Of a stretch of DNA of 57,306 nt, positions 7,704-57,241 are shown one piece after another. The position numbers were made by a program, and so were the translations under genes. Within the stretch, counting starts at the first letter, position 1; the number at the start of each line of letters is the position of its first letter. The DNA lies in the NCBI GenBank assembly GCA_027484915.1, contig JAIXSA010000055.1:1-57306 (forward strand). Direction: 5' to 3'. The DNA is from Paracoccaceae bacterium (lineage in GTDB: Bacteria; Pseudomonadota; Alphaproteobacteria; Rhodobacterales; Rhodobacteraceae). Below the pieces are notes generated by a model, which saw only the letters and a list, made by a program, of their open reading frames with translations, had not been told where the DNA came from and searched no databases.

Positions 7704-8435
7704 ATGTCCAACCGCATCGCCGTCGTCACCGGAGCCGCAGGGGGGCTGGGCCGGGCCTTCGTGGACAGGTTGTTGGCCGATGGCCTGACGGTGGTGGGGG
7801 TGGACATCGACGGCGCTGCCCTGCTGACGATGGCGGCGGACCGTGAGGGGTTCGTGGCGGAAGCCGTGGACCTGACGGATGCCGATGCGATTGCCGACCT
7901 CTTCGACCGGCTGAGTGCCCGTTTTGGGGGCGTGGACGCGCTGGTGAACAACGCCGGGACCTGCTTCATGTCGGACTTCCCGGACATTCCGGCCAGCGAG
8001 CTTGACCGGCAGATGGCGATCAACTTCTCCTCGGCCTTCCATTGCTGCCAGGGGGCGGTAAAGGCGATGCTGGGGCGGCCGGGGGTGCGGAAGATCGTGA
8101 ACATCTCGTCGAACGGCGCCTACAACTTCGACGTCTTCGACCCGCCGCATTACCGGGCGTCCAAGGCGGCGATGGACACGCTGACCAAAGACCTCGCCCG
8201 GCGATATGCGCGAGAGAGGATCGCGGTGAACTCCATCGCGCCGGCGATGACCGAGACGCCCTTGTTCAATGTGCTGACCGAAGAGGTGCTGGCCAAGGCA
8301 ATCAGCGCAATGCCGCACGGGCGGGCAATGCAGCCGGACGAGATCGCGAACTGGGTGGGGTTCCTGATCTCGCCCGCGGGGGATGTGTCGTCGGGGAATG
8401 TCATCATCCTGAACCAGGGGCGCGACGTGCGGTAG
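7704..8435 (+). CDS. Short-chain dehydrogenase/reductase (SDR)
   Basis: This 243-residue classical SDR carries out NAD(P)-dependent alcohol/ketone oxidoreduction in the cytosol. The cofactor motif TGAAGGLG lies near residue 10. An Asp at the end of beta-2 (VGVDID) favours NAD(H). NNAG is near residue 88. The catalytic Ser sits in NISSNGAY and the YRASK motif supplies Tyr and Lys. The N/S/Y/K tetrad is complete. Substrate cannot be told from the sequence. AGGGAG precedes the ATG. A tandem-palindrome element separates it from the aminotransferase gene 75 bp downstream, so co-transcription is possible with modulation at that element. Confidence 0.88.
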   Translation: MSNRIAVVTGAAGGLGRAFVDRLLADGLTVVGVDIDGAALLTMAADREGFVAEAVDLTDADAIADLFDRLSARFGGVDALVNNAGTCFMSDFPDIPASELDRQMAINFSSAFHCCQGAVKAMLGRPGVRKIVNISSNGAYNFDVFDPPHYRASKAAMDTLTKDLARRYARERIAVNSIAPAMTETPLFNVLTEEVLAKAISAMPHGRAMQPDEIANWVGFLISPAGDVSSGNVIILNQGRDVR

Positions 8436-8442
8436 CTGGGAC

Positions 8443-8491
8443 CAAATTCCTTAAGTAAGGAATTTGACAAGAATTTTACTTAAAATTCTTG
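8443..8491. repeat. Tandem palindrome pair, copy 1
   Basis: Two 24-nt palindromes sit side by side, 8443-8466 and 8468-8491. Each has 11-bp perfectly complementary arms (arm 1 CAAATTCCTTA, arm 2 CAAGAATTTTA) around a 2-nt centre. They lie between the SDR stop and the aminotransferase start, just before its ribosome site. Related pairs occur at 40249-40292, 44220-44263 and 56233-56277. Confidence 0.9.
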
Positions 8492-8510: not shown

Positions 8511-9632
8511 ATGAAGGTCACCATTCACAAGCTGTTCGATTACCTGCTGGAGACGACCTCCCAGGACCCGCCGGAGTGCTTCATCGGGTTCTCGCTGGCG
8601 CAGTCGCCCCGACTGAAGGATTTCCTGCCCGATCTCGACCCCGAGCTGTCGCTGGACTGGAACGGGAAGAGCTTCCTCGGGCTTCCCTCGCTGCGGCACC
8701 GGGTGCTGGACCAGGCGGGGCTCCACCTGCCGCTCGACAGCGTCCTGATCACGGCGGGGGCGGCGGAGGCGAACTATCTCCTGTTCCGCCAACTGGTGAG
8801 TGCCGGGGACGAGATCGTCACCGAAGCGCCGGGCTGGCCGCAGGCGGGGGTGATGGCGAAGGCTATCGGGGCGCGGCTGGTCGAGGTGGCACGGGACGAG
8901 GCGCGGGGGTGGTGGCTGGACCCGGAGGCGGTCGCCAAGGCGATCACGCCCCGGACGCGGATGATCTTTCTGACCAATCCGAATAACCCCACCGGACGGC
9001 TGATCCCCGAGGCCGACCTTCGCGCCTTGGCCGACCTGGCCGACCAGTACGGCATCTGGCTGGTGGTGGACGAGGTCTACGCGGGGCTGGAATGGGCGGG
9101 GCCGCGGCCCCCATCCATTGCCTGGATGACACGCTTCGGGATCACCACGGGATCGGTGTCGAAGGCGCTGGGGCTGCAGGGGCTGCGGACGGGCTGGATG
9201 ATCTGCCAGTCGCCCGAAGTGATCCGCGACGCGATGATCCTGCGCGAGAACGGCTCCGAGATCATGAACGTCCTGGGCGAGCACATCGCCGAAGTCGCGC
9301 TGCGGCCGGATCGGCTTGCCGAGGCGCTTGGCCGGGCGCGGGCCGAGGGGGTGGAGACGCTGGACCGGCTGGAGCGGTTCGTGGCTGGTGAGCCGCGTCT
9401 GAGCTGGCACCGGCCTGAAGCCGGCCTGATCGGTTTGGCGCGGGTGGACGGCACCGACGGCGAATCGCTGGCGCGGGCGCTGCTGAAGGACCCGTATCGG
9501 ACATTCCTGCTGCCAGGATCGGCCTACGGGTTGCCACGGCACATCCGCATCGGGGCAGGCGGCGGCCCGGAAGCGCGGTTGGAGGAAGGTTTAGGGCGGC
9601 TTTCGGCCCTGTTGCGCAGCGGGCGGATTTGA
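8511..9632 (+). CDS. PLP-dependent class I/II aminotransferase
   Basis: This 373-residue fold-type I PLP enzyme is probably a cytosolic aminotransferase. The visible family elements are ITAGAAEAN (phosphate-binding loop region), NPNNPTGRLIP, VVDEVYAGLEW (Asp contacting the pyridine nitrogen), and SVSKALGLQGLRTGW, where the Lys forms the Schiff base. The C-terminal substrate-binding Arg lies in RHIRIGAG. Substrate is not assigned; the overall pattern recalls aminotransferases annotated as putative aspartate/capreomycidine-type enzymes. GAGGGGG lies 6 bases ahead of the ATG. A hairpin terminator follows. Confidence 0.88.
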   Translation: MKVTIHKLFDYLLETTSQDPPECFIGFSLAQSPRLKDFLPDLDPELSLDWNGKSFLGLPSLRHRVLDQAGLHLPLDSVLITAGAAEANYLLFRQLVSAGDEIVTEAPGWPQAGVMAKAIGARLVEVARDEARGWWLDPEAVAKAITPRTRMIFLTNPNNPTGRLIPEADLRALADLADQYGIWLVVDEVYAGLEWAGPRPPSIAWMTRFGITTGSVSKALGLQGLRTGWMICQSPEVIRDAMILRENGSEIMNVLGEHIAEVALRPDRLAEALGRARAEGVETLDRLERFVAGEPRLSWHRPEAGLIGLARVDGTDGESLARALLKDPYRTFLLPGSAYGLPRHIRIGAGGGPEARLEEGLGRLSALLRSGRI

Positions 9633-20674: not shown

Positions 20675-20720
20675 CACAAATATCCTGCGGGGGTCCGGGG
20701 GTGCAAAACCCCCGGGGGCT
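20675..20720. repeat. G-rich hairpin repeat family C, copy 1
   Basis: The element reads CACAAATATCC, then GGGGGTCCGGGGG, a 7-nt loop and CCCCCGG; the stem is CCGGGGG (20695-20701) with CCCCCGG (20709-20715). It lies inside the glc operon between glcD and glcE. A close relative is at 50946-50996 and the start of a third at 57271-57306. Confidence 0.85.
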
Positions 20721-34235: not shown

Positions 34236-34263
34236 GTAGGGTGGGCGATACCGCCCACCCTAC
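34236..34263. repeat. Perfect 12-bp hairpin after hyi
   Basis: GTAGGGTGGGCG (34236-34247) pairs perfectly with CGCCCACCCTAC (34252-34263) across a 4-nt loop. GTAGGGTGGGC-type hairpins occur as dispersed repeats in many proteobacteria. Here it may end the DUF1285-hyi transcript, although no U-tract follows. Confidence 0.65.
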
Positions 34264-39325: not shown

Positions 39326-39678
39326 TCCACAGCTGGCCCGATCTGAAGGCTTTCGCCCTCTCGCTCAACCTGCCCGAGGTTACCACCGACTTCCCCTGGG
39401 GCAACGAATGCCTGAAGGCGCATGGAAAGATGTGGTGCTGGTGGTCGCCTTACGTCGACGCCGCCGTCTTCAGGGCCTCCCGCGACGAACGCGAGATGCT
39501 GCTGGCCGCCGACCCCGCGACCTTCACCCTCCACCCACATTACGAACCGCATAACCTGGTCCTCGTCCGTGCGGAGCGGATCGACGAGGGCTGGGCCAAG
39601 GCGCGCCTCCTCCAGCAATGGCGCGACGCCGCCCCGAGGCGCTGGCTGAAAGCCTGGGACGCCCAGCATGGCCACTGA
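39322..39678 (+). CDS. MmcQ/YjbR-family protein
   Basis: This encodes 118 residues of the YjbR fold (CyaY-like), marked by LPEVTTDFPWGNECLKAHGKMW, the Trp-rich centre and HYEPHNLVLVRAERIDEGWA. The family has a double-wing DNA-binding-like fold, but its function is unsettled. It sits between two YdeI-family genes and overlaps both (4 bp with the first, 11 bp with the second), so the three are surely expressed as a unit. Confidence 0.88.
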   Translation: MIHSWPDLKAFALSLNLPEVTTDFPWGNECLKAHGKMWCWWSPYVDAAVFRASRDEREMLLAADPATFTLHPHYEPHNLVLVRAERIDEGWAKARLLQQWRDAAPRRWLKAWDAQHGH

Positions 39679-40243
39679 CGCCCCCATCATCACCGTCCGC
39701 TCCCGCGCCGAGCTGCGCGTCTGGCTGGCTGAGAACCACGCCAGCGCCAAGGCCGTCTGGCTGGCCACCTGGCGCAAGCGACATCCGGACTACCTGGCCC
39801 CCGAAGACCGCATCGAAGAACTCCTCTCCTGGGGCTGGATCGACAGCACGCCCCGCGCGCTGGACGCCGAACGCACGATGATCCTGATCGCCCCGCGCAA
39901 CCCCGCCTCGGCCTGGAGCGCGGTCAACAAGGCGCTGGTCGAAAAGGCCCGCGCGAAGGGCACGATGACCCCGGCGGGCGAGGCGAAGATCGCCGAGGCG
40001 CAAGCCAACGGCATGTGGGATTTCCTGAACGACGTCGACGCTCTGATCGACCCTCATGACCTGACCGAGGCTTTGGCAAGCACCGCAACCGCCAGATTTT
40101 GGGCAGCCCAGCCGCGCACGATCCGCCGCGGCACGCTCGAATGGATCAAGATGGCCAAGACGCCCGAAACCCGCGCAAAACGGATCAAGGACGTCACTGA
40201 CAGCGCCGCGCAGGGCCTGCGTCCCAGCCCGTTCCGGCGGTGA
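39668..40243 (+). CDS. YdeI/OmpD-associated-family protein, second copy
   Basis: This encodes 191 residues. It shares with the gene at 38762 the same order of motifs: RSRAELRVWLAENHASAKAVWL, LLSWGWIDSTPR, IAPRNPASAWSAVNKALVEKA and KTPETRAKRIKDV. Identity appears modest, pointing to an old duplication. It starts 11 bp inside the YjbR gene and is followed by a tandem palindrome and a converging gene. Role unknown; members are annotated as bacteriocin-protection proteins by analogy only. Confidence 0.88.
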   Translation: MATDAPIITVRSRAELRVWLAENHASAKAVWLATWRKRHPDYLAPEDRIEELLSWGWIDSTPRALDAERTMILIAPRNPASAWSAVNKALVEKARAKGTMTPAGEAKIAEAQANGMWDFLNDVDALIDPHDLTEALASTATARFWAAQPRTIRRGTLEWIKMAKTPETRAKRIKDVTDSAAQGLRPSPFRR

Positions 40244-40248
40244 AGGGC

Positions 40249-40292
40249 CAAATTCCTTCGAAGGAATTTGCAAAAGTTTTCGAAAACTTTTG
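40249..40292. repeat. Tandem palindrome pair, copy 2
   Basis: Two 22-nt perfect palindromes abut: 40249-40270 (arm CAAATTCCTTC) and 40271-40292 (arm CAAAAGTTTTC), each centred on TTCGAA-type symmetry. They fill the 54-bp gap between two converging genes and may act as a two-way transcript end. Confidence 0.92.
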
Positions 40293-40297
40293 AGCCC

Positions 40298-40756
40298 CTA
40301 ACCCCGATCGATCCGAACCTGGTAGCAGTTGTTCCGGGCCGATCGCACATGGACATAGGCCACGCGCGGATCGTCCAACAGCGCCTCGGCCCGGGCCGGG
40401 ATCGTCCCCGTCGCCACCACTCCGCCGGTGCCATAGACGATCCGGTCGTCCATCCCATAGCCCCGGACGATGTATTCGGGCGAGGCGAGGACTTCGGGCC
40501 GCTCAGCGCCCCCACCAGCCTCACAGGCATCTGCGCAAAGGAAGATCGGACCCACCTCGGCATAGGGCTGCAGTGCGGGGAACGGGCGGTGCGCGAGGAT
40601 CAGCATCCCCGCCCCTTCCGGGATCATCTTCAGGCAATGCCTGCAGGGATTGCCGCCCCCGTCCGAAACCGCCCGCTCGGGCTGCTGCCCATTGGCATCA
40701 AGACCCCCGGCCTGATAGGCCCGCACCACTTCGGTCGGTATCGCTGCAAATCGCAT
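40298..40756 (-). CDS. DUF1203-family protein
   Basis: This encodes 152 residues. The family pattern is clear: an N-terminal MRFAAIPTEVVRAYQAG, the Cys pair NPCRHCLKMI, PYAEVGPIFLCADAC and the C-terminal YVHVRSARNNCYQV. The conserved Cys/His residues suggest a metal or redox role, not demonstrated. GGAGG is spaced 6 bases before the ATG at 40754-40756. It converges with the YdeI-family gene across a tandem palindrome. Confidence 0.9.
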   Translation of the reverse strand: MRFAAIPTEVVRAYQAGGLDANGQQPERAVSDGGGNPCRHCLKMIPEGAGMLILAHRPFPALQPYAEVGPIFLCADACEAGGGAERPEVLASPEYIVRGYGMDDRIVYGTGGVVATGTIPARAEALLDDPRVAYVHVRSARNNCYQVRIDRG

Positions 40757-40823
40757 GTCATCCTCCGTCTTTCCCCGGAAGATGCCGCCTGCGGGCCGCG
40801 TGGGCGACCCGATCCTTGCGGGT

Positions 40824-41195
40824 TCAGTCCCTCTCGACCAGCCGGCCCAGGACCCGGCCACCCAGGATGTGCAGGTGATAGTGCGGCACCTCCTGCATCC
40901 CGTGCACCCCCGCGTTGGTGATGGCGCGGAACCCCTCGGCCCCGGTCAGGCCCAGGATCGCACAGACCTTGGCCACGGTGCGGTGGAAGTCCACCAGTTC
41001 CTCCGCGGAAGCCTCGGCCGCGAAATGGTCAAGGCTCACGTAAGCCCCCTTGGGGATCGCAAGAACATGGACCGGAGCCTGGGGATGGATGTCGTGGAAC
41101 ACCAGCGTGTGGGGCGTCTCCATCACCGTCTTGTTCGGGATCTCGCCGCGCAGGATGCGGGCGAAGATGTTGGTGGGGTCGTAATTCCAGCTCAT
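40824..41195 (-). CDS. hinT: HIT-family nucleotide hydrolase (HinT-like)
   Basis: This 123-residue histidine-triad protein hydrolyses nucleoside phosphoramidates or acyl-adenylates. The HIT motif HYHLHILGG near the C-terminus carries the catalytic His; FARILRGEIPNKTVMET and HVLAIPKGAYVSL are typical of the HinT/PKCI group. The ATG at 41193-41195 (MSWNYDPTNIFARI) is preferred; a TTG at 41204 would add three residues and overlap the upstream stop. It follows the glycosyltransferase gene by 5 bp and is probably co-transcribed. Confidence 0.92.
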   Translation of the reverse strand: MSWNYDPTNIFARILRGEIPNKTVMETPHTLVFHDIHPQAPVHVLAIPKGAYVSLDHFAAEASAEELVDFHRTVAKVCAILGLTGAEGFRAITNAGVHGMQEVPHYHLHILGGRVLGRLVERD

Positions 41196-43822: not shown

Positions 43823-44215
43823 ATGCAAGAAGTCACCGGCGGCTGCCTTTGCGGTGCGGTCCGCATCACGGCAACGGGCCGGCCCTACCGGGTCGGCATC
43901 TGCCACTGCCTTGACTGCCGCAAGCACCACGGCGCGCCATTCTATGCCTCGGCGATCTTCCCCGAGACCGCCGTCACGGTCGAAGGCGAGACCCGCGTCT
44001 ACCAGGGCCGCCACTTCTGCCCGACCTGCGGCGGATCGGTCTTCGGGCGATCCGGCGATGAGGTCGAAGTCAATCTGGGCGCGCTGGACGAAACCTCACG
44101 GTTCCGCCCGACCTACGAGCTCTGGTCTTTCCGCCGCGAGGATTGGCTGCCCGAGTTCACTGGGATGCAGCACTACGACAAGGATCGCGAAAGCACCAAG
44201 CGCAGCCAAGGTTGA
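43823..44215 (+). CDS. GFA/CENP-V-family zinc protein
   Basis: This 130-residue small zinc-binding protein is of the glutathione-dependent formaldehyde-activating (GFA/Mss4) fold. Zinc ligands are seen in GGCLCGAVR, CHCLDCRKHHG and HFCPTCGGSVF, in the canonical order. Most members lack proven activity; GFA speeds S-hydroxymethylglutathione formation, although that activity has been disputed. The start lies 11 bases after a family-B repeat. It converges with puuD across a tandem palindrome. Confidence 0.92.
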   Translation: MQEVTGGCLCGAVRITATGRPYRVGICHCLDCRKHHGAPFYASAIFPETAVTVEGETRVYQGRHFCPTCGGSVFGRSGDEVEVNLGALDETSRFRPTYELWSFRREDWLPEFTGMQHYDKDRESTKRSQG

Positions 44216-44219
44216 CCCC

Positions 44220-44263
44220 CAAAATCCTTCGAAGGATTTTGCCAAACTTTTCGAAAAGTCTTG
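44220..44263. repeat. Tandem palindrome pair, copy 3
   Basis: The first unit (44220-44241, arm CAAAATCCTTC) is a perfect 22-nt palindrome. The second (44243-44263) has a perfect CTTTTCGAAAAG core but mismatched ends. It lies between the converging GFA and puuD genes. Confidence 0.88.
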
Positions 44264-44271
44264 CCCCCCGG

Positions 44272-45504
44272 TCAGACCGGGTCCTGCGCCCCGGCCTTGC
44301 GAAACCACTCCACGATCGCCGCCCGCTCCTCAGCTTCCATGTAGCTCAGGTTGCCAGGCGGCATCGCATGGGTCACGCCGGCCTGCAGGTAGATCCGCTT
44401 CGCCTCATGCGCGATTTGGGCGGGCGTCTCCAGCACCACGCCCTTCGGCGGCCAGTAAAGCCCCTCCCACCCCGGCTCGGCCGCATGGCACATGCTGCAG
44501 CGACCCTGCACGATGCCCACCACATCGTCGAACCCCTCAGCCGAGGCATAGACCAGTGCTGCGCCCTGCAGTTTTGCGTCACCATCGACCGTGCGCATCG
44601 GCGCGGTCGACAGCCAAGCGATGGCCAGGAACAACAGCACCGTCACGAACCAGGTCCAGTGCGGGTTGCCCTTGCGGGCATGCTGGGTGTTGAACCAGTG
44701 CCGGATCGTCACCCCCATCAGGAACACCAACGACGCGATGACCCAGTTCCACTCCGTCGCGAAGACCAGCGGGTAATGGTTCGACAACATCAGGAAGACG
44801 ACCGGCAGGGTCAGGTAGTTGTTGTGGGTCGACCGCTGCTTGGCGATCTTGCCATACTTCGGATCCGGCTTCCGCCCCGCCTTCAGGTCGGCCACCACGA
44901 TGCGCTGGTTCGGCATGATGACGAAGAACACGTTCCCCGACATGATGCTGGCCGTGAAGGCCCCCAGATGCAGCATCGCCGCGCGTCCGATGAATACCTG
45001 GGTGTAGAACCAGCTCATCCCGACCAGCACCCCGAACAGCGCCACCATCAGCACCGTCTGGTTCGCGTTGACGAAGACCTTGCACAGCGTGTTGTAGGCC
45101 ACCCACCCAAAGGCCAGTGACGCGGGCGAGATCGCCACGGCCTGCCAGACCTCAAGCTCCATCACCGTCGGGTCGATCAGGAAGAGCTCGGCCCCAAGGT
45201 AGTAGACCAGCACCAGCATGGCGAAGCCCGACAGCCAGGTCGCATAGCTTTCCCATTTGAACCAGACCAGGTGGTCCGGCATCGCCGCCGGGGCCACCAG
45301 GTATTTCTGGATATGATAGAACCCGCCGCCGTGGACCTGCCATTCCTCACCGTCCGCGCCACTGGCGAGGTTGCGGTCGCGGTGCAACCCAAGGTCCAGC
45401 GCGATGAAATAGAAGCTTGACCCGATCCAGGCGATGGCGGTGATCACATGCAGCCAGCGTGTTGCCGTTTCCACCCATTCCCACAAGACGACCCAGTCAT
45501 ACAT
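44272..45504 (-). CDS. puuD: Membrane urate hydroxylase (cytochrome c-linked)
   Basis: This 410-residue enzyme oxidises urate to 5-hydroxyisourate in the inner membrane. About eight helices make up residues 10-320, with conserved HVITAIAWIGSSFYFIALD at the start, HNNYLTLPVVFLMLSNHYP and WNWVIASLVFLMGV in the centre. The C-terminal tail is a cytochrome c domain with haem motif CSMCH and a later Met ligand candidate (AMPPGN). Length and the fused cytochrome domain match PuuD. It is divergent from a LysR gene, and the 94-bp gap holds a symmetric site. Confidence 0.95.
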   Translation of the reverse strand: MYDWVVLWEWVETATRWLHVITAIAWIGSSFYFIALDLGLHRDRNLASGADGEEWQVHGGGFYHIQKYLVAPAAMPDHLVWFKWESYATWLSGFAMLVLVYYLGAELFLIDPTVMELEVWQAVAISPASLAFGWVAYNTLCKVFVNANQTVLMVALFGVLVGMSWFYTQVFIGRAAMLHLGAFTASIMSGNVFFVIMPNQRIVVADLKAGRKPDPKYGKIAKQRSTHNNYLTLPVVFLMLSNHYPLVFATEWNWVIASLVFLMGVTIRHWFNTQHARKGNPHWTWFVTVLLFLAIAWLSTAPMRTVDGDAKLQGAALVYASAEGFDDVVGIVQGRCSMCHAAEPGWEGLYWPPKGVVLETPAQIAHEAKRIYLQAGVTHAMPPGNLSYMEAEERAAIVEWFRKAGAQDPV

Positions 45505-50945: not shown

Positions 50946-50996
50946 TTGCTCTTTTCACAAATACTCCACGGGGGTCCGGGGGTGTGAAACCCCCGG
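50946..50996. repeat. G-rich hairpin repeat family C, copy 2
   Basis: TTGCTCTTTT (50946-50955), CACAAATACTCC, then GGGGGTCC leading into a CCGGGGG/CCCCCGG stem (50976-50982 with 50990-50996) over a 7-nt loop. It lies between the ureidoglycine aminohydrolase and allA genes of the same operon. It matches 20675-20720 closely and the first part matches 57271-57290. Confidence 0.88.
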
Positions 50997-55167: not shown

Positions 55168-56142
55168 TCATCCCATCCGCGCGGCCATGTCCAGCATCCG
55201 GTTCGAAAACCCCCACTCGTTGTCATACCACCCGAAGACGCGCAGCATCCCCCCGTTGGAGAGCTTCGTCTCCGGGCAGGCCATCACCACCGACTCCGCC
55301 CGCGCCCGTAGATCGGTGGACACGAGCGGCCGGTCCGTCGCCCCGATCACCCCCCCAGCCGCCCGAAACGCCGCGTTGACTTCCTCGACCGAGGGACGCC
55401 TTTCCGTGACCAGATGGAAGTCCACGCAGGACACGCTGGCAACCGGCACCCGCACCGCCTGCGCCACGATCCGCCCCGCGATTTCAGGCAGCACCCCGTC
55501 CAGAAGCCGCGCCGCCGAGGTCGTCGTCGGCACCATCGACAAAGCCGCTGCCCGACTGCGAGGATAGTCGGCGGCGGGCGCGTCCACCGTCGGCTGGCTG
55601 CCGGTGTAGCAGTGGACCGTCGTCATCGACCCGGTGACGATCCCCCAGTTCCGATGGATCAACCGCGCGAGTGGGGCCAGCGCGTTGGTCGTGCAGGACG
55701 CATTCGAGACGATCCGCTGGTCACTCAACACGCCATCGTTGGCCCCCAGGACGACGGTGACATCCGCCGCCCCGGACGGACCCGAGACCAGCACTCGCAC
55801 CGCCCCAGCCCGCAAGCCCCGCTCCGCCACCTCCCGCGCGTCGGCCCGCCCAGTGCATTCCATAACCAGGTCCACGCCGGTCAGATCAAGGGTCGAGAGG
55901 TCTGCAGTCCGGTGCAGCAGCACCCGCCGTCCATCCACGACAAGCGCGCCGCCGTCCAGGGCAACCGACCCGCGCCACGGCCCAAAGACGCTGTCATACT
56001 CGAACAGGTAGGCGCACATTTCTGGCGCCGCGATGTCGTTGATCCCGGCGATCTCCAGCTCCGGCCAGGTTTCCGGCGACAACAGATAGGCCCGCAGGAC
56101 CGACCGACCGATCCGCCCGAACCCGTTGATGAAGACCCGCAT
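55168..56142 (-). CDS. Type I glyceraldehyde-3-phosphate dehydrogenase family protein
   Basis: This 324-residue NAD-binding enzyme forms acyl-phosphate from an aldehyde phosphate. The N-terminal FINGFGRIGRS binds NAD. The catalytic Cys is in SNASCTTNALAPL and the His in TTVHCYTG; PTTTSAAR is the phosphate site. The C-terminal WYDNEWGFSNRMLDMAARM recalls erythrose-4-phosphate dehydrogenase more than classical GapA (usually NEWGYS-RV). It is a little shorter than GapA (about 333). The ATG at 56140-56142 follows GGAGG by 6 bases; the ATG at 56178 would add 12 residues of non-family sequence. It may be a second, biosynthetic paralogue. Confidence 0.85.
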   Translation of the reverse strand: MRVFINGFGRIGRSVLRAYLLSPETWPELEIAGINDIAAPEMCAYLFEYDSVFGPWRGSVALDGGALVVDGRRVLLHRTADLSTLDLTGVDLVMECTGRADAREVAERGLRAGAVRVLVSGPSGAADVTVVLGANDGVLSDQRIVSNASCTTNALAPLARLIHRNWGIVTGSMTTVHCYTGSQPTVDAPAADYPRSRAAALSMVPTTTSAARLLDGVLPEIAGRIVAQAVRVPVASVSCVDFHLVTERRPSVEEVNAAFRAAGGVIGATDRPLVSTDLRARAESVVMACPETKLSNGGMLRVFGWYDNEWGFSNRMLDMAARMG

Positions 56143-56232
56143 CCCGCCCCTCCGAACCGTCCGGCGCAGTCTCACCATGGGCCGGGAGGCGCTTCAACGG
56201 CCATCTTGTTCCCCGCACAATTCGCCGGGGCG

Positions 56233-56277
56233 CCGGAGTTTTCGAAAACTCCGGTCCGATTTCTTCGAAGAAATCGG
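56233..56277. repeat. Tandem palindrome pair, copy 4 (GC-clamped)
   Basis: Two 22-nt perfect palindromes: 56233-56254 (arm CCGGAGTTTTC) and 56256-56277 (arm CCGATTTCTTC), each with the TTCGAA centre and one base between. It lies between the ornithine cyclodeaminase stop and the GAPDH-like start, both on the minus strand. Confidence 0.92.
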
Positions 56278-56281
56278 TGCC

Positions 56282-57241
56282 TCAAACCCCGACTTCGATC
56301 CCGAGACCCCGCTCGCGTGCGCGCTGCACCGCAACCGCCGCGACTGCCAGATCCTGAAGCCCGACCCCCGTCCCGTCGAACAACGTGATTTCCTCGGCAG
56401 TCCGCCGACCGGGATGCTTGCCGATCAGCACATCCCCCAGGGGCACGATGGCCGAGGCATCCAGCATTCCCGTCCCCACGGCATGCTGTGCTTCGCCGAT
56501 GGTCACCGACTGTGCGACCTCGTCCGTGAAGACCGAGGCACCCGCCACCAGCGCAGGCTCAACTTCCTGCTTGCCCTTGGTGTCGGTGCCCATGCAAGAC
56601 AGGTGCGTTCCGGGCGAGACATGCTTTGCCAGAAGGCTTGCCGCCGGAGAGGAAGTGATCGTCACGATCACCTCCGCCTCACGCATCCGGGGCAGGTCCA
56701 CCGCCTCGAACGGCAGGCCCAGTTCCGCCGCCACGGCGCCAAGTTTCGGCAGCATCTCGGGGTGCAGGTTCCAGGCGATCACCCGCTCGAACCGCCGCAC
56801 CCTTGCCGCGGCCCGCAACTGGAAGCCAGCCTGATGCCCCGCACCGACAATTCCCAGCACATGCGCTTGCGGAACCGCCAGCCGGTCGATGGCGATGGCC
56901 GAAGCCGCCGCTGTCCGCAGCGCGGTCAGAAGGTTGCCGCCCACCATCGCGACGGGCCGCCCGGTCTCTGGATCAAACAGGAAGACCGAGGACTGGTGGT
57001 TGATCATCCCCTTCGCGGCGTTGCCCGGGAAATACCCCCCCGCCTTCACGCCCAGCTGCCTGCCCGCCCGGTCAAGCCCTGACTTGAACCCGTACTGCCG
57101 CCCCTCGCCCAAGGCCTCACGCACTACGGGGAAGTTGTAGGCGTCCCCCCGTGCCATCGCGGCGAAACAGGCCTCGACCGCGCGGAACGCGTCTTCAGGG
57201 GTGACGAGCGAGGCGATCAGGGCCTCGGGGACGATCAGCAT
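56282..57241 (-). CDS. Ornithine cyclodeaminase / mu-crystallin family protein
   Basis: This 319-residue Rossmann-fold NAD(P)-dependent enzyme is related to ornithine cyclodeaminase, ketimine reductase and alanine dehydrogenase of the mu-crystallin family. NAD-binding VLGIVGAGHQAGFQLRAA lies near residue 130. The substrate-side QYGFKSGLDRAGRQLGVKAGGYFPGN and the region GTHLSCMGTDTKGKQEVEP are typical. The true substrate cannot be told. It lies upstream of the GAPDH-like gene on the same strand, separated by a tandem palindrome. Confidence 0.88.
   Translation of the reverse strand: MLIVPEALIASLVTPEDAFRAVEACFAAMARGDAYNFPVVREALGEGRQYGFKSGLDRAGRQLGVKAGGYFPGNAAKGMINHQSSVFLFDPETGRPVAMVGGNLLTALRTAAASAIAIDRLAVPQAHVLGIVGAGHQAGFQLRAAARVRRFERVIAWNLHPEMLPKLGAVAAELGLPFEAVDLPRMREAEVIVTITSSPAASLLAKHVSPGTHLSCMGTDTKGKQEVEPALVAGASVFTDEVAQSVTIGEAQHAVGTGMLDASAIVPLGDVLIGKHPGRRTAEEITLFDGTGVGLQDLAVAAVAVQRARERGLGIEVGV

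Follow-up and report, generated by a model that had tools for sequence, protein, structure and literature searches.

Four intergenic sites in the window, the whole 57,306-nt stretch of DNA analyzed here, each carry two adjacent palindromic units (Table 1). The sequences and coordinates that a sequence-only reading had given for these sites were confirmed by re-reading the window, as was its statement that 7 of the 8 units have fully complementary arms, the exception being the unit at 44243-44263. All four sites begin 4-7 nt past a stop codon, and this is also true of the site that had been described as lying before a start codon, a description that stands with this context added. Each of the four elements is predicted to fold into two hairpins on both strands, with energies of -9.8 to -23.8 kcal/mol.

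Table 1. Palindromic units at the four window sites and their neighboring genes
Feature	Coordinates	Strand	Description
Short-chain dehydrogenase	7704..8435	+	PF13561/PF00106; host gene of 8443 element
Type B element, unit 1	8443..8466	+	arm CAAATTCCTTA, loop AG; 7 nt past stop at 8435
Type B element, unit 2	8468..8491	+	arm CAAGAATTTTA, loop CT
Class I/II aminotransferase	8511..9632	+	PF00155; gene after 8443 element
YdeI/OmdA-like	39668..40243	+	PF13376; host gene of 40249 element
Type A element, unit 1	40249..40270	.	CAAATTCC-TTCGAA-GGAATTTG; 5 nt past stop at 40243
Type A element, unit 2	40271..40292	.	CAAAAGTT-TTCGAA-AACTTTTG; 5 nt from opposing gene's stop at 40298
DUF1203	40298..40861	-	PF06718; opposing host gene of 40249 element
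GFA family	43823..44215	+	PF04828; host gene of 44220 element
Type A element, unit 1	44220..44241	.	CAAAATCC-TTCGAA-GGATTTTG; 4 nt past stop at 44215
Type A element, unit 2	44243..44263	.	imperfect, 21 nt
Urate oxidase N-terminal domain protein	44272..45504	-	PF06181; host gene of 44220 element
GAPDH family	55168..56178	-	PF02800/PF00044; gene after 56233 element
Type C element	56233..56254	-	CCGGAGTT-TTCGAA-AACTCCGG; second unit in upstream-gene sense
Type C element	56256..56277	-	CCGATTTC-TTCGAA-GAAATCGG; first unit in sense; 4 nt past stop at 56282
Ornithine cyclodeaminase/mu-crystallin	56282..57241	-	PF02423; host gene of 56233 element

The elements fall into three types, whose units open with CAA or with CCG/CGG. 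Type A consists of two palindromes centered on TTCGAA with arms of the form CAA..TTG, 44-46 nt in length. Type B has arms similar to those of type A, a one-base linker, and a length of 49 nt. Type C is built of CCG/CGG hairpins, often three of them over about 70 nt, of which the window site has two. The type A centers are symmetric, and the type B loops read RAGN and then NCTY, the pattern by which they were selected. Among 111 type B copies, the loop of unit 1 is AG in 95, CT in 5, and something else in 11, while that of unit 2 is CT in 99, AG in 3, and something else in 9, an orientation that the search pattern itself favored. Single hairpins are weak, with median energies of -8.3 and -8.2 kcal/mol.

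The window has 9 perfect hairpins whose arms reach 10 bp or more, versus 0-5 in 20 shuffles. In an own-genome sample of 406,929 bases, comprising the window and three whole contigs, a strict tandem finder that misses the 44220 pair returned 8 groups, whereas eight shuffles, two of each contig, gave none. With a family-filtered finder, these four contigs gave 9 hits versus 0 in five shuffles, and the 249 sequences to which it was applied gave none when shuffled three times. A looser finder does pick up chance hits, with 91 in 1,012,528 bases of mostly preselected loci versus 21 after one shuffle. In the own-genome sample, each of the 11 TTCGAA-centered palindromes flanked by 6 or more perfect pairs has an adjoining mate, which is imperfect for three of them. 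Two TTCGAA motifs separated by 12-18 nt occur at 27 places in the own genome versus 1 with the reversed pattern, and wider spacings give 30 versus 5. Paired copies are therefore not confined to the four sites at which they had been noticed, and many more are present in the own genome and its congeners.

The type B pattern gave 379 strand matches (200 forward and 179 reverse, where one place may match on both strands) spread over 27 of 32 congeneric genomes, and a reversed control gave none. For type A, a loose TTCGAA-pair pattern has at least one match in 52 of 61 genomes, but chance matches to it arise in other families too, with up to 15 in controls. A stricter pattern yields at least 80 loci, and among those listed all but four (L051, L098, L115, and L129) carry Rhodobacterales-type names. 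The genera among the listed loci include Rhodobacter, Tabrizicola, Pseudorhodobacter, Salipiger, Leisingera, Pseudooceanicola, and Maritimibacter, all of which we take to belong to the Rhodobacterales. When genomes were drawn evenly over the family, this stricter pattern was found in 27 of 295, with at least 7 copies in five of the 295, two of these being the window's genome and a congener. The element has multiplied in some lineages, and many others lack it, or at least lack this form of it. Plasmid records with matches come from Leisingera only (1 record in one scan and 13 in another). Records labeled Enemella evansiae TN21-6 (L098) and Exiguobacterium profundum SSD5 (L129) hold these Rhodobacteraceae elements and are probably mislabeled or contaminated; the flanks of L098 are 88% identical to Fuscovulum blasticum L085, and the genome behind it (G072) has the same places listed as G033, a genome of the same family.

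With genes taken from a simple gene caller, the 150 distinct elements, orthologs included, divide into 57 between convergent genes, 70 between co-directional genes, 7 between divergent genes, 15 inside a called gene, and 1 of unknown context. Compared with gene pairs of the own-genome sample, convergent gaps are enriched and divergent gaps depleted, in a count where orthologs were not collapsed and cases are not independent. Elements usually begin about 5-7 nt past the stop codon, with median stop-to-element distances of 6.5 nt for the 70 co-directional and 5 nt for the 57 convergent elements, and 97 of these 127 lie at most 15 nt from a stop. The next start is a median of 28.5 nt away from co-directional elements, and in 56 of the 70 (orthologs included and therefore not independent) the upstream stop is closer than that start. 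Once orthologs are joined, there remain 62 independent sites no more than 25 nt from a stop, split evenly between convergent and co-directional (31 each); type B accounts for 10 convergent and 1 co-directional of the independent sites and type A for 18 and 26 (Fisher p 0.005). Among own-genome gaps of 25-600 nt, the strict pattern occurs in 4 of the 36 between convergent genes, 4 of the 140 between co-directional genes, and none of the 55 between divergent genes, and simple U-tract terminators occur in 2, 5, and 0, respectively. Since few gaps hold an element, most gene ends do without one. Nine cases from an earlier set that were scored as inside a gene are mostly in implausible antisense-like ORFs, and the L115 element overlaps the C-terminus of a gene. 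The element at L059 (6729-6773) overlaps the start of a substrate-binding-protein-like gene, which probably begins at a GTG in the center of the second palindrome.

Variable arm positions in 105 distinct type B copies pair far above shuffles, as in pair 5 of unit 1, which is paired in 102 of the 105 against a shuffle mean of 52.0 and maximum of 68. For the 44220 address, 14 congeners supply nine distinct type A rows, which have 97.9% of cells paired and top all 500 shuffles in cells paired, in cells changed on both sides, and in covariation score, scores that are inflated by relatedness. Pairs changed on both sides were matched by 22 of the 500 shuffles and pair types by 172, and slid versions of the alignment all scored lower. 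The arms do not vary free of complementarity, and this strong both-sided change, also seen at one orthologous address, indicates that pairing is maintained. The sequence-only reading had gone further and ascribed the pattern to selection on the pairing; maintenance stands, while selection as its cause is not proven, given that A-C mismatches are as frequent as G-U and that several pairs show double transversions with hardly any single-step intermediates, the outcome that template-switch correction of the arms would give. Read in the sense of the upstream gene, 64 co-directional elements contain 5 G-U, 5 A-C, and 5 other mismatches in 1024 pairs, 52 convergent elements contain 5, 9, and 5, and the type B list contains 19, 20, and 19. 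This balance speaks against a constraint on the sense RNA only.

The two units of an element do not share their arms. One arm used in both units was seen in 0 of 150 elements, against a permuted mean of 10.3 and a minimum of 2 in 2000 permutations, and in 0 of the 111 type B copies. This avoidance is consistent with a requirement for two separate hairpins or with the loss by slippage of identical neighbors. Kissing loops, an idea prompted by the TTAAGTAA/TTACTTAA and UUCGAA/UUCGAA loops of the window and by a few orthologs, were rejected, as loop 1 and loop 2 show no association at two variable position pairs in the 111 type B copies (p 0.48 and 0.63). A covarying outer stem, which would form a three-way junction, was likewise rejected, since matched flanks of 129 elements score no better than permuted ones (-4.88 versus -5.23 +/- 0.20). 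The flanks are GG/CC-biased and their innermost position is complementary in 62 of 129 versus an expected 0.38, and the hairpins may be extended by one pair or enclosed by a short, invariant GG/CC stem. Neither a polarity of unit order (I-II 18:7 in a first count) nor one of the linker (A in 13 and T in 1 of the co-directional elements) is significant at independent sites.

Comparison of orthologous addresses showed that the type of element changes while its place is retained. The 8443 address has 10 B, 8 A, 6 C, and 2 decayed elements among 26 loci, all between the stop and the start of the next gene (four further loci were left out as partial or not orthologous). At the 44220 address, 30 loci comprise 14 A, 6 B, 3 C, and 7 with none. 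Another 30 loci at the 56233 address comprise 7 C, 4 B, and 19 with none, with no A and more empty or decayed cases. Where the neighboring gene matches by BLAST in the locus, occupancy is 24 of 25 at 8443, 21 of 22 at 44220, and 11 of 20 at 56233, counts that include a single hairpin (L227) and a decayed hairpin (L232). Where that gene gives no BLAST match, occupancy is 0 of 1, 2 of 8, and 0 of 10, which is expected because the junction itself is gone. The exceptions L183 and L187 (8443) and L267 (44220) resemble remnants. The element persists at 8443 and 44220 and, in part, at 56233. The 40249 address holds no A, B, or C element in any of the 4 congeners that have the upstream gene (only four have it), and these carry a different GC-rich hairpin sequence after the stop codon. 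A CAAATATCCCGGGG.. sequence that resembles the window's hairpin elements at 20695-20715 and 50976-50996 follows the stop at this address in L200 and L202 and is less close in L201 and L203.

On trees of the flanking genes, which are quick trees with many weak forks and give only rough counts, there are at least 12 type changes at 8443 (26 rows), 10 at 44220 (30 rows), and 15 at 56233 (30 rows). Sister pairs unlike in type include L255 with A and L257 with B, L265 with A and L271 with C, and L229 with B and L231 with C (SH-aLRT 98, 96, and 97, respectively); L255 has lost the neighboring gene. Composite sites, in which a CAA pair and a CCG pair lie in the same intergenic region about 100 nt apart (L077, L093, and L100) or adjacent (L078), may be intermediates of type exchange. 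Retention of an element at conserved junctions while its type changes is better evidence for function than arm covariation, the 40249 address excepted. Because related species often hold such a stretch at one spot with a different sequence type, the comparison suggests that the folded shape, rather than the letters, is what the cell keeps.

The elements resemble the REP, BIME, and REPIN sequences of E. coli and Pseudomonas, which are interspersed extragenic palindromic units, paired in inverted orientation, found at gene 3' ends and rarely between divergent genes; the type B loops, selected by their pattern, may likewise be paired in inverted orientation, and the type A centers are symmetric. 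REP hairpins have a GTAG-type tetranucleotide at their 5' foot. Unlike REP, the present elements have no 5' GTAG and their flank composition lacks GTAG columns, their arms are near-perfect, and three sequence-unrelated types are exchangeable at one address. A profile of the RAYT transposase (Y1, PF01797, one Pfam family) gave no match over the Pfam cut-off in 32 genomes and a weak sub-threshold match in 2 of them, and was positive in 5 of 14 control genomes, E. coli among them.

The observed anatomy, abundance, and place of the elements, their arm covariation and unit non-identity, and the exchange of three types at three addresses lead us to a function that we propose tentatively and at somewhat less than even probability, namely that this is a Rhodobacteraceae family of REP-like, RAYT-less hairpin barriers at 3' ends with exchangeable cassettes. 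Transcription would run through the hairpin pair, and RNA polymerase, having passed the gene, would then be released (e.g., by Rho) or the transcript would be cut. Trimming by 3'-to-5' exonucleases would proceed back to the hairpin pair, which would set and stabilize the mRNA end, and between convergent genes a single palindromic pair would serve both mRNAs. The only need would be for two hairpins that fold independently close to the stop, which would make A, B, and C interchangeable and would let arms drift while both sides change together, within the limit that the units must not turn identical and cross-pair. This proposed mode of action would be like that of protective 3' or intercistronic stem-loops. 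Excerpts of a study of R. sphaeroides PNPase describe some 3' ends where its authors suppose that stable structures halt degradation (PMC7866481), and excerpts of another describe E. coli operon decay as shaped by protective structures (PMC5927463). Those are individual structures, in the excerpts of the latter mostly inside coding regions, whereas here the family is dispersed, standardized, and extragenic. Counting against a barrier are the balanced mismatches, the lack of significant polarity, the weak single hairpins, the 11 of 20 occupancy at 56233, the 0 of 4 at the 40249 address, the many gene ends without an element, and the presence of type A with this arm form in only 27 of 295 sampled family genomes. 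It is also conceivable, and we hold it with more doubt, that the three sequence-unrelated but shape-equivalent cassettes swap at fixed junctions via a RAYT-independent exchange, with selection keeping fold and address and not sequence.

A rather unlikely but serious alternative is a selfish or neutral interspersed repeat that tends to insert behind stops and whose arms stay complementary through template switching at replication (quasipalindrome correction). High copy number, patchy taxonomic spread, mismatches without strand bias, the composite A and C sites, and a 40249 address without A, B, or C in 4 of 4 congeners would all be natural for such a repeat. Pair 5 of unit 1 in type B points the same way, as its states (A-T 55, T-A 47, A-A 2, and T-G 1) imply double transversions almost without intermediates. 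Template switching is reported in excerpts of PMC8604942 to homogenize the arms of inverted repeats, and since it does so and intermediates are few at A-T/T-A positions, it is a serious partner or rival; template-switch repair without selection on pairing could lie behind the arm symmetry. Transition pairs, however, do show single-step intermediates, as at pair 4 of unit 2 (A-T 58, G-C 34, G-T 8, and A-C 3 in the pattern's reading direction). Neutral gain and loss would not be expected to leave two addresses nearly full while their types change, the type B loop orientation is kept (as the search pattern favored) where spacer inversion would scramble it, and the 32 genomes searched yielded no Y1/RAYT mobilizer.

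We consider it unlikely that the elements are intrinsic terminators lacking a U-tract, i.e., hairpin clusters that act bidirectionally between convergent genes. Placement at gene ends and the convergent enrichment would fit, and as in the hairpin clusters included among intrinsic terminators in excerpts of PMC8355165, hairpins lie near stop codons and are often two; Gupta and Pal claim there that such clusters terminate and that poly-U is unnecessary. In contrast to intrinsic terminators, the elements have A/U-rich, weak stems and several stand immediately before the start of the next gene. A U-tract is nearly absent, the 9 nt downstream containing 4 T or more in 3 of 116 elements and 5 T or more in none of them, and the short median distance to the next co-directional start leaves little room for a promoter. 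Excerpts of PMC4824070 furthermore describe an E. coli terminator a few bp behind a gene as almost completely repressed. A DNA-level site, in which a protein binds the dyad or the dyad extrudes as a cruciform, has perfect dyads, the TTCGAA core of type A, and the lack of strand bias in its favor but is very improbable, since a fixed dimer site would not tolerate arms that vary this widely or the replacement in type B of the 6-bp core by an asymmetric 8-bp one at the same addresses, and placement is tied to stop codons with divergent gaps depleted.

The sequence-only reading knew of no named element of this form, and this holds against Rfam 15 and the literature searched. Rfam 15 gave no match over the gathering score in the window or in 10 loci; one match below it, M23 at L257 1206-1266, is apart from the L257 element (1441-1489). 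The titles and abstract openings covered by a literature search include none describing this family, and an older description may exist in subscription papers. Term searches found no "Rhodobacter" in the text of RepRanger (PMC12306157) or of a 2008 stem-loop survey (PMC2267715), and excerpts of a structured-RNA survey describe other Rhodobacterales motifs, HRC-8-4 and uORFC-8-2 (PMC8632094).

In the common view, most bacterial 3' ends are made by U-tract terminators or are products of Rho. Sister species that swap the type while keeping place and fold would amount to a large set of natural replicates for learning what an mRNA end requires. An additional question is what machinery swaps cassettes of 44-70 nt so precisely without a RAYT.

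Other repeats were met nearby. G033 and G072 contain another recurrent TTCGAA family with GC-rich arms (e.g., C16:50429-50458), about a dozen copies of which were listed, often with a third TTCGAA midway (TTCGAAGCCGCTTTCGAAAGGCCCTTCGAA and similar). In the window, near-identical hairpins at 20695-20715 and 50976-50996 (CCGGGGGTGCAAAACCCCCGG and CCGGGGGTGTGAAACCCCCGG), each following CACAAATA and GGGGGT, are apparently another dispersed intergenic element. The window also contains a perfect palindrome with 12-bp arms at 34236-34263 (GTAGGGTGGGCG..CGCCCACCCTAC).
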